A stretch of 64,000 nt of DNA from Burkholderiales bacterium PBB6 (lineage in GTDB: Bacteria; Pseudomonadota; Gammaproteobacteria; Burkholderiales; Burkholderiaceae_C), in the NCBI GenBank assembly GCA_002255925.1, contig NKIH01000007.1, positions 1 through 64,000 of the forward strand, in the 5' to 3' direction. A program made the position numbers and the translations under genes. Every line of letters begins with the position of its first letter. Position 1 is the stretch's first letter. Of this stretch, positions 55,865-64,000 are shown piece after piece. Below the pieces are notes generated by a model. It searched no databases and had not been told where the DNA came from. It was given only the letters and a program-made list of their open reading frames with translations.

Positions 55865-58615
<2,751 letters not shown>

Positions 58616-59970
58616 AAGCTGGCGTTGAGCTGGGTCTGCTGCGTCAGGTAGGCGCGGTAGTTCAGGAACAGCTCGCGGTCGACTTCACCGGGCTGCTGCC
58701 AGAAAGTGTGCAGCGGCCCCGGGTGCACCAAGCCCGGAATGGCATACAGGCAATCGCCCAGCGCCAGCACCGGCGTGTTGTGGAACATGGCCTGCAGGCC
58801 GGTGGTGCTGTTCACCGTGACCACGCCCTTGGCGGCGCGCAGCAACGTGGGCAGGTGCTGGTCATGGATGTAGAGCACCCGGCCTTCCAGGCCCAGCGCG
58901 GCCACGCGGCTGCGAATCAGCTCGCGGTAATCACGGTAGGGCTTGTCCAGCGGATGGTGCTTGATGACGAGCAGGTCACCGGCCGACGCGGCCTTGGCGA
59001 ACGAGTCGATCACCTCGTGGATGAACTGCTCGACGCTCTGGTACGGCGAGTGGCAGAGGATCTGCGCGTCGTTGTGCACCTGCAGCGGCACCAGGAAGTA
59101 GCGCTTGTGCTGCTCAGGCGCGGCCAGATAGGCCTGCGCTCGGCGCTCGACCCAGCGGCTTTCATACTTGCGCCCGGCGCCGCGCACCCAGCGCAGGCCC
59201 TCGCGGATCGGATGCAGGCAGCGGTGGTGCTGGTAATGCGGGAAACGCTTGCGGCCCAGCCAGCAGGCCAGCGCGTAGGTCATCGCCAGGTTGGCCACCG
59301 TGCCGAACTGCTGGCCCGTGGGCTCAGGCGGCGGCGCGGGCTGAATGTCCAGGTCACGGTAGAAGGTGGCGTCACGCGGCAGGCTGGAATCAGCGTTCAC
59401 GCCGCCCACCTCCAGCGTCACGTAATCGGGCCGCAGGTAGCCTTCTTCGAACACGAACACCGGCACGCCGGCGGCTCGGGCCACCGCCATGGCCACTCGG
59501 TGCAGAGGCCGGCTCTGGCCAAACAGCACCAGCGCATCGGCACGGTGGCGATCCAGCAGGGCCCGCAGCGCGGTGGGCCATTGGGCGCTGGGCTGGTTGT
59601 AGGCCACCGCCGTGGGCGCCTCACCACCGTGGCCGGTGCAGCCGGGTTCGCTCCAGAACCATTCATCACCGGCGTTAAAATTCACCTTCTGCACCAGGGC
59701 GCCCTGCACGTGCAGCCACGCCGCCAGCCGTGCGAAAAAAGGCCCCATGGGGCCTTGCAGCAGCAGCGGACGGCGACAGGCGCGCAGTCGGTCCAGGGAG
59801 GTAGGTAGCAACATGTGGGTGCGGTTTGACAGCGCAGTGTAGGCCTGCCGTGTAAACGAACAGCCCCCCAAGAACGCCGACGAACACCCCCTAATGCGCC
59901 GCAATGTGACTTGATGCACTGCGGATACCGACCGGTTTCACGCTTTGCACACATCGGTGCCCGGGCCTGC

Positions 59971-62022
59971 TCAGCCGCGCATGGCCACCCAGGCGCGCAG
60001 CACCTGGCGCCACAACTGCGACAACACGCGCCGCGCGGCCGATGCTGCGGCGTCTTCGGCCCGCCAGCGTTGCAACTCCGCCAGCACGTTTTCAGGCGAG
60101 GTGAACTTGCCGGAGCGTGCACTCACATAGCTCGGGTACTTGATCAGTGCGGCAGCCACCAACGCGTCCAGGCTGATGTCAGCGCCCGCCCAGGGCGGCG
60201 GCTGCCGGTCTTGCGTGAGGCCGCGGCCCGCGTAGAACGGCCAGCCCCAGGTCACCACCGGCCGACCACGCAGCAGGGCCTCGAAGCCGGCAAGCGAGGT
60301 CATCACATGCACTTCATCCACGGCCCGCAGCAGGGCGTCCATGGGCACATCGGTCACGGTCTCCTCGCACCACCTCGCGGCATCCTGCTCACCCTGGCCT
60401 TGTGCGCGCAGCCCGGCCACGACGTCGGGGTGGGGCTTCCACACGATGTGCGCGTCGGGCCGCGCCTGGCGCACGGCCTGCAGCAGGCCGATGTTGGTGC
60501 GTACGCCGGGTGCGCCGGCCAGCACGGCGGCATCGGTTTCCACCTGGCCGACCACCAGCACCACGGCCTTGGGCGTGGCCGGACGGCGCCAGACGCCGCC
60601 GCCCACGTTGTATTTGGTCAGGCCCGCCGCGAGGATGGCTTGGCGCAGGTGGGCGGCGCGGGCCAGCAAGGCGGGCTCGAAGGTGTGGGCCCGGGCCAGC
60701 AGCGCCAGCAGGTCGGAGTTGGTGGCAGGGTCGTAGTGCATGCCGCCAGCGTCCACCACCCATGAGAGCGGCCGACGCAGCGCAGCGCCCAAGCCCACCG
60801 AGCGCAGGAAGCCATCTTCCAGGCGCAGCACACCGGCCAGGTGATCAGGCGGCAGACCAGGCGGCACCGGCTGGCGGCCCCACAGCACCAACGTACTGCC
60901 GGCGGGCACCGCATCACCGCGGCCGATGAAGCGCACATGGCTGCCTTGCAGGAACTGCCGCACCAGCGGCCGCTTCCACCAGCTGAAGCCCTGCGCCACC
61001 AACTCAGGCGCAAAGCGCTCACGCTGCTGGCGTTGCAAGGCCATCCAGCTGACCAGCGCCTCCACCTCGCAGCGCTCGCCGGTGTCGGGGTGCACATAGC
61101 GCGGGTAGGCCACCAGGGCTGCGTGCACCAGCGCTTCCAGGCTGGCAGCACCACGCCGGTCGGGCGCGGGCAGCTCGTCCTGCGTCAAACCCCAGCCGGC
61201 GTAAAAAGGCATGCCGAAGCAGCGCACGGGCTTGCCCCAGAGCAGGGCTTCAAAGCCAAGTTGCGAGGTCACCACGTACACCGCGTACACGGCCTCCAGC
61301 AAACCAGCCGGGTGAGCATCGGTGGCCAGCAGCGTGACGCGGGCAGCGTCGGCGTCGCTCAAGGTCGAGCTCAAGCCCGCACGCAAATCGGCCATGTGCA
61401 GCCAGCCATGCTTGCGGCCCGCCACCACGTCGGGGTGCACCTTGAGGATGACCCGGCGCTGCGGATGCTCGGCCAGCGCGGCAGCCAGCATGCGCTGAAA
61501 GCTCGCGGTGTTGGCCTGCCCGTGCAGCACCGACGCATCACCATGGGTTTGATCGACCACCAGCACCGCGCCGGCGGCATGAACTTGCACATCGTCGCGC
61601 GCGGCGTTGTATTTGGAGATGCGGGCGCTGCACCAGGCTTGCTGCAATGCGCGGGCGCGGGCTGCCTGCAAGGGCGTCACGCCCTCGGAAATCAGGCGTT
61701 CGAGCCGAGAGGGTTGCCGGGCGTCGTAATAGATGCCGAGGTCGTCGAGCACCACCGAACACGGCGGGTCGTCTGGCCCCAGGCCCACCGAGCGCAGGAA
61801 GCCATCTTCCAGCCGCAGCAGTGGCAAGCCGTGCGCTTGGGCATAGGCAGCGGCCCGGGCGGCGCTGGGTTTCAGGCCCCAGGCCAACACGGCATCGGCC
61901 GGCGGCTTGCGAAAAGCCGTGCGCCAGCTGGCGCGCACCAGTTGCGCATCATTCAGCAGCGCGGGCAGCGGCGCCAGCCCGGCCAGCCCCGGCCCATGCA
62001 GCAACCAGCGCGGCAGGCTCAC
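59971..62022 (-). CDS. kpsC: KpsC-like dual-module capsule polysaccharide (beta-Kdo) transferase
   Basis: The 683-residue protein consists of two related glycosyltransferase modules, each with RLEDGFLRSVGLG (near 70 and 400), a KVHPDVV/WKPHPDVV segment (near 194 and 530) and GFEALLWGKPV...PFYAGWGLTQD or GFEALLRGRPV...PFYAGRGLTQD (near 256 and 600). This two-module layout is that of KpsC, which alternates linkages in the poly-Kdo linker of capsular polysaccharide. The start is GTG 62022, 6 bp after the cysQ stop. No other capsule export genes are in the window. Confidence 0.92.
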   Translation of the reverse strand: MSLPRWLLHGPGLAGLAPLPALLNDAQLVRASWRTAFRKPPADAVLAWGLKPSAARAAAYAQAHGLPLLRLEDGFLRSVGLGPDDPPCSVVLDDLGIYYDARQPSRLERLISEGVTPLQAARARALQQAWCSARISKYNAARDDVQVHAAGAVLVVDQTHGDASVLHGQANTASFQRMLAAALAEHPQRRVILKVHPDVVAGRKHGWLHMADLRAGLSSTLSDADAARVTLLATDAHPAGLLEAVYAVYVVTSQLGFEALLWGKPVRCFGMPFYAGWGLTQDELPAPDRRGAASLEALVHAALVAYPRYVHPDTGERCEVEALVSWMALQRQQRERFAPELVAQGFSWWKRPLVRQFLQGSHVRFIGRGDAVPAGSTLVLWGRQPVPPGLPPDHLAGVLRLEDGFLRSVGLGAALRRPLSWVVDAGGMHYDPATNSDLLALLARAHTFEPALLARAAHLRQAILAAGLTKYNVGGGVWRRPATPKAVVLVVGQVETDAAVLAGAPGVRTNIGLLQAVRQARPDAHIVWKPHPDVVAGLRAQGQGEQDAARWCEETVTDVPMDALLRAVDEVHVMTSLAGFEALLRGRPVVTWGWPFYAGRGLTQDRQPPPWAGADISLDALVAAALIKYPSYVSARSGKFTSPENVLAELQRWRAEDAAASAARRVLSQLWRQVLRAWVAMRG

Positions 62023-62028
62023 CCCAGC

Positions 62029-62805
62029 TCAGAGGCCGCTGGCCGCGAAGTGGGGGTTGTCGAAACCGGGCTTGCCGTAGCGCAGGTCAGCGCCATCAGA
62101 CACCACGGTCACGCGGCCACCGGCGGCGCGCAGCACGGCGTCGCCGGCGGCAATGTCCCACTCCATCGTGCGGCCCAGGCGCGGGTACAGGTCAGCCTCA
62201 CCGGCCGCCACCAGGCACAACTTCAAAGACGAGCCAGCGTTGGTACGCGAAGCCACCACGCGGCCATTCAGGAAGGCGTCGAGCGCGGTTTCATCACCAT
62301 GTGAGCGGCTGGCCACCACCGTCAGGCCCTCAGCGGGCACGGCGCGGCACGCGATGCTGCGGCGGCCAGCGGCGTCTTCCAGCCAGGCACCATGGCCCAC
62401 GGCACCACCAAACAAGCGGCCAATCGCCGGGGCATACACCAGGCCCAGCACGGGGCGGCCGCCATCGATCAAGGCGATGTTGACGGTGAACTCACCGTTG
62501 CGGCTGATGAACTCCTTGGTGCCGTCCAGCGGGTCGACCAGGAAGAAGCGGCCTGCCACCTCGGGCACGTGCCCGGCCGCCACGGCTTCTTCAGCCACCA
62601 CCGGAATATCAGGGGCGATCTTGGCCAAGCCGGCCAGGATGACGGCTTCGGCTTGCTGGTCGGCCAGCGTCACCGGCGATGCGTCAGATTTGTTCTCCAC
62701 CGAAAAGTCAGTGGCATAGATGCCCATGATGACTTCACCGGCTGCATGCACCAGGGGCGTCAGCTCTTCCAGCAAGCGGGGCAGATCGAGGTTGGCTTGT
62801 GACAT
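62029..62805 (-). CDS. cysQ: 3'(2'),5'-bisphosphate nucleotidase CysQ
   Basis: CysQ hydrolyses 3'-phosphoadenosine 5'-phosphate, a by-product of sulfate assimilation. The 258-residue protein has the inositol-monophosphatase-type metal motifs: PVVAEE near 68, [25 protein letters not shown] near 88 and [16 protein letters not shown] near 214. ATG 62805 is the normal start. It diverges from the transposase-like/cysD frame, and both belong to sulfur assimilation. kpsC follows by 6 bp and is probably co-transcribed. Confidence 0.93.
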
Positions 62806-62891
62806 TGGTGGATTTGCAGCGGTTAGGGGGTGCCCGATTGTGCACGGCACATGCGAAAATCAGCCCCCTAAAACATTTATTGACCAGACTT

Positions 62892-64000
62892 GTGTCGACC
62901 CTGACGCCCGACATCGCTGAACTCAACCAACGCCGCCGGCGTGCGGTGGAGTTGCGCCTGGACGGCCTCACGCTCAACAACATCAAGGAGTCGACCGGCC
63001 TGAGCGTGCCCACCATCATCAGCGCCTGGCAGGCGTTTGTGGCGGGCGGCTGGCAGGCGATTGATGTGGCGGCCCGCGGCAGGCCCCGCGGCGACGGCCG
63101 GGTGCTGAGCGCCGAGCAGGAAGCCGAGTTGCGCCACAGCGCGCTGCACACCCCACCTGAGCAGCACGGCCTGCCGGCTGGCTTGTGGGACGTGGCCGCA
63201 CTGCAAACCCTGGCGCAGCAGCGCTGGGGCGCCGAGTTGAACAACCGCGCGGCCACCCGCCTGCTGGAGCGCTGGCAGCTGGGTGTGCAGGGCCTGCGCG
63301 AAACCGCCGAGCGCCACCCGGCTCATCTCGACTGGCTGGACACCACCTGGCAAAGCCATGTGAAACGCGGCCAGCAGGGTGGTGCGCGCCCGTGGTGGGC
63401 AGGCAGCATCAGCCACCCTGACGTGGCAGCACCCGGCGGCGTGCGTGTGGCCATCACGCCGCGTGGCAGCCTGCACTGGCTGGGCACCCGCCACCTGAGC
63501 AGCGCAGAAGATATCGAATCCTTTCTTGAGCGCTTGCCCGAAGCGCACAGCCAGGGCGCCTGCGTGCATCTGCACGGCGTGGCGTTCGGCGCGTCACCGC
63601 GGCTGCTGGCCTGGCTGGCTGCGCGGCCGCACATCGAGGTGCTGGCTTGCCCGGTGGCACCCAACCGGCCGCAAGCCAAAGCCGCCATCCCTGTTTCAGC
63701 CCCAGCTGCCGTGCCCAAACCGGCAGTTTCCTCACTTTCCATCCCGCCCAGAACGGACCATCCCATGAGCTTGACCCACCTTCAGCGTCTGGAAGCCGAG
63801 AGCATCCACATCATGCGCGAGGTCGTCGCCGAGGCTGACAACCCGGTGATGCTGTACTCCATCGGCAAGGATTCAGCCGTGATGCTGCACCTGGCCCGCA
63901 AGGCGTTTTACCCCGCCCCGCCGCCCTTCCCGCTGCTGCACGTGGACACCACCTGGAAGTTCCGGGCGATGTACGAGATGCGCGATCGCATGGCCAAGGA
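62892..64000 (+). CDS. Dead IS630-like transposase domain joined in frame to CysD (partial at right edge)
   Basis: From GTG 62892 the frame is open, without any stop, through 63765 into CysD and to the window edge. The first 291 codons look like an IS630-type transposase: helix-turn-helix [20 protein letters not shown], winged helix [10 protein letters not shown] with [17 protein letters not shown], and an RNase H-like remainder. The catalytic acids are missing; VHLHGVAF stands where a VLDNA-type motif is expected. A Pro/Ala-rich stretch (about 257-288) then leads into the CysD start. It is either a real fusion with a DNA-binding or structural domain on CysD, or a separate gene whose stop was lost by mutation or sequence error. 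TTG 62880 is an alternative start. Confidence 0.7.
63765..64000 (+). CDS. cysD: Sulfate adenylyltransferase subunit 2 (CysD module, 5' part)
   Basis: CysD, with the GTPase CysN, makes adenosine 5'-phosphosulfate from sulfate and ATP. From ATG 63765 the sequence [20 protein letters not shown] matches the usual CysD N-terminus, followed by the PP-loop [21 protein letters not shown] and [17 protein letters not shown]. 78 codons are visible before the window ends. This ATG is in frame with the upstream transposase-like sequence, so it may be an internal start rather than the true one. The ribosome site is weak. Confidence 0.92.

Follow-up and report, generated by a model that had tools for sequence, protein, structure and literature searches.

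An IS630 transposase-derived domain fused to CysD in Ideonella and other proteobacteria, with a candidate transposon-end-like site upstream of the gene

The cysD gene that runs off the end of the window (the whole 64,000-nucleotide stretch analysed here, bases 1–64000 of the 291 kb contig G000:C32 in a 4.4-Mb genome) is fused in frame to an N-terminal domain that, by profile comparison and structure prediction, derives from an IS630 transposase. The fusion is real and is not chance readthrough. The earlier note on this DNA had suggested looking for the same fusion in related genomes, and it is indeed found there: this form, called type 1, joins CysD in frame in 35 genomes, which belong to 11 genera, and in one of them it consists of the helix-turn-helix (HTH) alone. 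Its hosts are Ideonella, other Burkholderiaceae, two further GTDB families, and one Marinomonas MAG. In part of these genera there is a conserved site upstream of the gene and, going by its sequence, we consider it reasonably probable that the fused HTH module autoregulates the gene at this TIR-like site, probably by repression. The features of the locus in the window are as follows.

62029–62805, minus strand: divergent cysQ (inositol monophosphatase family)
62864–62884, plus strand: candidate operator CCCCCTAAAACATTTATTGAC, a degenerate inverted pair of IS630-terminal-repeat-like half-sites
62892–63764, plus strand: IS630-transposase-derived N-terminal domain and linker, with a GTG start, in frame with CysD
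62907–63047, plus strand: first HTH (residues 6–52), containing the TGLSVPTI that is invariant in a 12-sequence set
63111–63272, plus strand: winged-helix part (residues 74–127), from the Pfam scan and the predicted structure
63387–63647, plus strand: RNase H-like part without the catalytic D1 and D2 (residues 166–252), from the predicted structure and the alignment
63666–63764, plus strand: Pro/Ala-rich linker (residues 259–291), mostly of low confidence in the model and of differing length among species
63755–63757, plus strand: GGA, a weak Shine-Dalgarno-like triplet 7 nt 5' of the internal CysD ATG at 63765
63765–64000 and on to G000:C32 64661, plus strand: CysD (sulfate adenylyltransferase subunit 2), with cysNC next

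The 291 codons of 62892–63764 contain no stop and are in frame with the ATG at 63765, from where the frame continues to the end of CysD past the window; the absence of a stop between GTG 62892 and CysD, reported before from a reading of the codons, is confirmed by translation. The same frame stays open upstream as far as GTG 62799, giving an ORF of 621 aa from that codon and of 590 aa from GTG 62892 (L003:2800–4665), with TTG 62880 as an alternative in-frame start. It ends where a complete CysD ends, directly 5' of its partner cysNC (634 aa). The CysD part carries the Pfam PAPS_reduct domain and matches TIGR02039 over its full length (positions 1–294) with 502.9 bits against a cut-off of 396.6, while the first part of the frame matches HTH_29 and HTH_33, both below their cut-offs. 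The Pro/Ala-rich linker that the earlier note placed between the domain and CysD, and the divergent cysQ that it placed next door, are both real.

The openness of the frame alone is little proof of a fusion, because these genomes are GC-rich and, among the matches listed, 13 other CysDs of the family scoring below the cut-off also lie in open frames of 551–715 aa; none of these 13 coincides with a match to the N-domain profile. Other long frames ahead of CysD (L106, L110–L112, L114–L117, L133, L135, L137, L151) have no related domain by eye and are apparently open by chance. What excludes chance readthrough is that the domain runs into CysD in frame and without a stop in all 14 full-length copies of the genus and in 17 of the 18 loci of the named collection.

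These copies come from several searches. Among 60 relatives there are 17 domain matches, and the full-length domain is present in 14 genomes of the same genus, that of the window and 13 more at 44–53% identity, where every copy is free of stops and runs into CysD through a linker that differs in length. Genus-wide, 15 of 16 genomes have a domain match; the other, G009, has neither a domain match nor a CysD at E≤1e-40. One same-genus MAG (G002) retains only the last part of the domain, which is cut at about residue 208 and preceded by unrelated sequence. According to the named collection the genus is Ideonella (I. oryzae, I. benzenivorans, I. alba, I. aquatica, I. livida, I. paludis, and others); this collection also contributes Scleromatobacter humisilvae, several MAGs, and two Marinomonas, and two of its loci leave their contig inside CysD. 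In Marinomonas pollencensis (L042) the two genes are split, the domain-type gene stopping about 100 bases before a cysD that has its own start, preceded by AAAAGGAACGGAT. The worry that a frameshift had been missed can be discounted, without recourse to raw reads, because the fusion recurs in related genomes.

At the level of the GTDB family the domain profile matches 60 of 399 genomes at E≤1e-12. Some of these matches prove to be real IS630 transposases about 350 aa long, ten of which were read, and reading of the loci finds fusions in eight genera (g1, g163, g131, g77, g84, g143, g19, g121), with G283 left out of the count, its two halves being on different contigs. In the class, CysD was found in 63 of 369 genomes, and a related domain in 7 of those 63 (G000, G589, G792, G783, G688 with the HTH only, G434, and G492), the loci read being all 12 with open frames of at least 411 aa, the window's included, and four shorter ones. 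The type-1 linker stretches are 19 to 106 codons long in 22 of 25 loci (those where the length is not set by default). The N-domain is under purifying selection, with dN/dS values of 0.11–0.62 that are below 1 in all 11 pairs; those of CysD are 0.02–0.26. The shortest form of the fusion, L109 in genome G688, has the first HTH alone on CysD.

Profile comparison firmly supports homology of the N-domain to IS630 transposases: type 1 matches these with an hhalign probability of 100 and E 1.3e-42 over 255 columns, and the NCBIfam IS630 model NF033545 is matched at E 3.1e-14 with 53 bits, under its cut-off of 100. In a plasmid collection there are 28 matching records, of which the annotated ones are named IS630; among the 20 listed, identity is 25–31% and the match reaches residue 254. 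The predicted structure (mean pLDDT 86.5) has an HTH, a winged helix, and an RNase H-like sheet over the residues given above, which bears out the IS630 domain order recognized earlier from the letters. Foldseek against the PDB gives weak whole-model matches only, to DDE/RNase H proteins (TnsB, 7svw, E 9.7e-4; RSV integrase; the SETMAR transposase domain), and a sequence search of the PDB with the domain profile returned nothing relevant. In the predicted full-length I. oryzae fusion the CysD half is poorly modelled (mean pLDDT 56.6).

The fusion shares with IS630 transposases (NF033545; L070–L072) the order of HTH, winged helix, and RNase H-like part, and their inner TIR resembles the site beside the fusion. 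It differs from them in the loss of D1 and D2, in a C-terminal part replaced by the linker, and in being joined to an enzyme. Both acids are present in all 10 IS630 rows of the alignment, whereas in the 33 fused domains D1 is an aspartate once (L091; 2 are gapped) and D2 never. The column of the third acid falls in the linker, where 13 of the 33 have E. Of the proposal that the catalytic acids are absent, then, the part concerning D1 and D2 stands, and the third acid is not judgeable from this column. Judged by the loss of D1 and D2, the fused transposase domain is catalytically dead.

Alignments of the upstream regions of Ideonella and g163 reveal a conserved block ahead of the start. In g163 the block is a perfect palindrome, CACTAAANNNTTTAGTG, which is found upstream of each of the 5 fused copies that 4 genomes carry; allowing one mismatch, these genomes have 1, 1, 2, and 1 sites, only at fusions, G329 having two fused copies. 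It is absent, within one mismatch, from the other six genomes searched, with a single site in G000 for the reversed-pattern control. The Ideonella form CTAAAACATTTANTGNC, again within one mismatch, is at the fusion in 11 of 16 genomes, being found once in 10 and twice in G000 (an extra 1-mismatch site), and not in the remaining 5; G003, G006, and G007 have the full fusion, yet no such site within one mismatch, and the reversed-pattern control gives 3 sites in all. All 4 g77 genomes have a g77 form one time only, at the fusion, and neither of 2 g143 genomes has it. The presence of each of these genus patterns at the fusions is by construction, since they were derived from those sites. Because other sites in the genomes are nearly absent, a single-site circuit is favoured over a regulon. 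The palindrome taken alone is significant (P≤0.05) in 5 of 28 type-1 regions and 0 of 7 type-2 regions, with P 0.26 in the window, and the Ideonella site is no significant palindrome by itself. In the window the candidate operator is 7 bp before GTG 62892 and overlaps the alternative TTG start; a σ70-type promoter was looked for at 62750–63000 and none was found. The two fused copies of G329 (MAG SH_71_45; L033 and L034), both with the palindrome upstream, differ from each other, and may be due to duplication or to a mixed bin.

The nearest IS630 elements (L070–L072) end in TATTGATCCGGCACTAAACATTTGAACT-like repeats. Of 32 type-1 upstream regions, 24 contain the TIR half-site GGCACTAAA as an inverted pair with an offset of 11–12 bp (P≤0.05), as does 1 of 30 controls (22 unfused CysDs, and 8 type 2 with 0/8); the site, the 9-mer, and the offset were picked after inspection, and the rows inside genera are related. 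The pair is present throughout g1 (10/10), g163 (5/5), g131 (2/2), g77 (3/3), and g143 (2/2, where the best pair sits apart from the block seen by eye), in one of two regions each in g121 and g84, and in none of the 6 from g19, f182, f169, and Marinomonas. A TIR-like inverted pair is in this way seen upstream of the gene in part of the genera. With a free offset, GGCACTAAA beats 150 of 150 permutations of its letters, also when g163 and g1, the genera in which the pair was first noticed, are left out; none of 200 random genomic 9-mers of similar A/T content matches its performance.

It is the inner repeat (CACTAAACATTT) that is matched, not the outer TIR: TIR 9-mers just inside GGCACTAAA score equally or better, and those of the outer TIR lower. 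A free search of whole TIRs against the upstream regions (P≤0.05) gives 1 of 30 for type 1, 0 of 8 for type 2, and 1 of 9 for unfused CysDs. The single half-site, with up to 2 mismatches, is in 18 of 32 type-1 regions against 3 of 30 controls, and set against its own shuffles it mostly has P>0.1 outside g163. Among the tests of the site it is the geometry of the paired half-sites, and only that, which is convincing. What is new here is the inverted pair upstream of the start and its apparent resemblance to the inner part of the terminal repeats in the nearest IS630 elements.

In the mechanism proposed, an IS630 transposase gene adjoining cysD would have been domesticated and then fused to it, giving a CysD that bears a catalytically dead transposase domain as a putative DNA-binding module. 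The first HTH and the winged helix would bind the inverted half-sites upstream of their own start codon, probably as a dimer and, because the half-sites resemble the inner terminal repeat, the old transposon end may now be an operator. Binding of the site would control cysDNC, perhaps also the divergent cysQ, and most likely as autorepression, since in the window 7 bases separate the site from the start codon that follows. The DNA binding, the sign of the control, its gating by the state of CysD/CysN, and the two products are what we infer from these comparisons. The suggestion in the earlier note that DNA binding could be coupled to sulfur metabolism gains indirect support from the apparently transposon-end-like site beside the gene. 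More tentatively, a whole transposon may have become the circuit, with the transposase as its DNA-reading half, the end as the single operator, and occupancy by CysN or substrate gating the binding; type 2 would later have lost the first HTH.

Type 2 has the winged helix and the RNase H-like part on CysD without the first HTH, and is present as 8 copies in 7 genomes (G259, G018, G025, G277 with two copies, G256, G434, and G492). Its direct profile match to IS630 is weak (probability 6), and its link to IS630 therefore runs via type 1, whose winged-helix and RNase H-like region it matches at E 4.2e-11. The existence of type 2 would suggest that the domain has been kept for a role at the level of the protein, such as oligomerization, the positioning or stabilizing of CysD-CysNC, or linking to another protein, with DNA binding secondary or lost. 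Indeed, type 2 has no start codon within 12 codons of CysD, it forms a single group (100/99) when CysDs are placed in a tree, and a profile search of 369 class genomes shows no stand-alone relative, its matches being in two genomes that both supplied its rows. Against this, the longest invariant run of type 1 is in the HTH (TGLSVPTI), the L109 fusion retains the HTH alone, and the TIR-like pair is missing from all 8 upstream regions of the HTH-less copies, so a role of the protein only is a rather unlikely account of the family.

In 31 of 33 type-1 rows there is an ATG or GTG no more than 7 codons from the CysD junction, and 28 of those 31 have a GGA/GAG/AGG-type triplet or longer ahead of it (L030, L082, and L085 do not). 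These start codons, and the separate neighbouring genes of M. pollencensis, would fit two proteins mainly, a small regulator and an internally started CysD, with the open frame there for translational coupling or merely tolerated. This is improbable given that type 2, L108, and L109 are without a start codon and ribosome site near CysD (none within 11 codons in L108 and L109), and that no in-frame stop is present in any of the 25 type-1 linkers, which means that translation of the domain runs on into CysD. In L108, L109, and type 2 the lack of a nearby start codon means that CysD is probably made only as the fusion. In the window and in the 31 type-1 rows with a start codon at the junction, that codon could also give free CysD, so that the fusion may be a regulatory minority form.

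That the domain is a functionless remnant of a dead transposon, open in frame by chance, or an assembly error, is very improbable, for although GC-rich genomes do have long domain-free open frames before CysD and the G002 MAG has its domain cut with unrelated sequence upstream, the same domain and frame are in all 35 genomes from independent assemblies, with linkers that vary in frame, and the conservation, including the dN/dS values, already contradicts it.

PutA, BirA, and NadR are enzymes that repress their own genes via a fused DNA-binding domain. The autoregulation proposed here would resemble theirs in combining a metabolic enzyme with a predicted DNA-binding domain and, beside the gene itself, a candidate operator; as in PutA and BirA, the domain and the enzyme are in one polypeptide, which is the case here at the sequence level through the predicted HTH/winged-helix fold. 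It would differ from them in that the module appears to derive from an IS transposase and the candidate operator is transposon-end-like. With the CysD of CysDN (TIGR02039; PDB 1zun chain A) the fusion shares a complete CysD followed by cysNC, and the CysD half of a close relative matches 1zun_A over 296 residues, but it has about 290 extra N-terminal residues outside both model and match. Searches of one open-access library, which covers neither subscription papers nor preprints, turned up no account of a CysD bearing a transposase or HTH domain. Host-transposase fusion genes and transposase-derived regulators, e.g. plant FHY3/FAR1, are reported (PMC13306707, PMC8700633). Such cases share with the fusion a host gene that recruited part of a transposase, whereas here the setting is bacterial, the partner is a central metabolic enzyme, and the transposon end has apparently been reused. 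If the proposed mechanism is true, this would be a bacterial case in which a metabolic enzyme has acquired a transposase by exaptation, along with the transposase's DNA site, and a direct test would become available of how a transposase and transposon end turn into a repressor and operator.

In a family sample CysD is present in 231 of 250 genomes, only 37 of which are above the TIGR02039 cut-off; the fusions read in this sample have the high-scoring kind of CysD, the N-termini read including very few of the low-scoring kind. A tree of 70 CysDs places the 37 fused rows, the Marinomonas split form, and 14 unfused CysDs in one clade (94/97), which is not among the best supported in a tree whose bootstrap had not settled. 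Type 1 changes state 10 times in the tree, at least 5 of these being forced by well supported branches. It is possible that there was one early association of the domain with cysD, with later losses, and the type-1 fusion may have been gained repeatedly. In L091 (G395) the D1 aspartate is kept (WIDD), the domain groups with IS630 (98/95), and an AGGAG precedes the internal GTG start of the CysD; this is possibly a separate, younger domestication. Taken together, the full fusion, the fusions with the HTH only or without it, and the split genes of Marinomonas make a natural series in which each step could be tested.

Besides the window and L042, where cysQ is about 1.9 kb upstream in Marinomonas, flank blast finds cysQ at 8 of 14 type-1, 3 of 7 type-2, and 3 of 5 unfused loci. 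cysNC is downstream in 12 of 14 type-1 loci; L037 ends before it, and the fused L103 (f182) has none within 1.7 kb. The genome of L103, G589, has two CysDs placed close to each other in the tree, the fused one near a KpsC-like gene and the unfused L113 with cysNC, which is a natural comparison within one cell. An E. coli CysB query (E≤1e-40) finds a homologue of the CysB family in all 13 Ideonella genomes tested, in 45 of the 53 genomes tested in total, and in 28 of the 31 among them that have the fusion; it is missing from fused G589, G792, and G434 and from 5 unfused genomes. Replacement of CysB by the fusion was considered and is rejected, since this regulator is also present; the proposed circuit would instead put sulfate activation in Ideonella and other proteobacteria under a second layer of control, additional to that by CysB.

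Beside cysQ-cysDNC (window 58486–62022, minus strand, and L003 8208–11990) are what we take to be KpsC/KpsS-like capsule export or synthesis genes, and presumably also exopolysaccharide genes (a sugar transferase, and one like mannose-1-phosphate guanylyltransferase). PAPS from CysNC might feed polysaccharide sulfation. Just after cysNC, two similar tandem genes (L003 6779–7270 and 7541–8032, minus strand) encode small secreted proteins, at the ends of which are motifs that we take to be PEP-CTERM-like.
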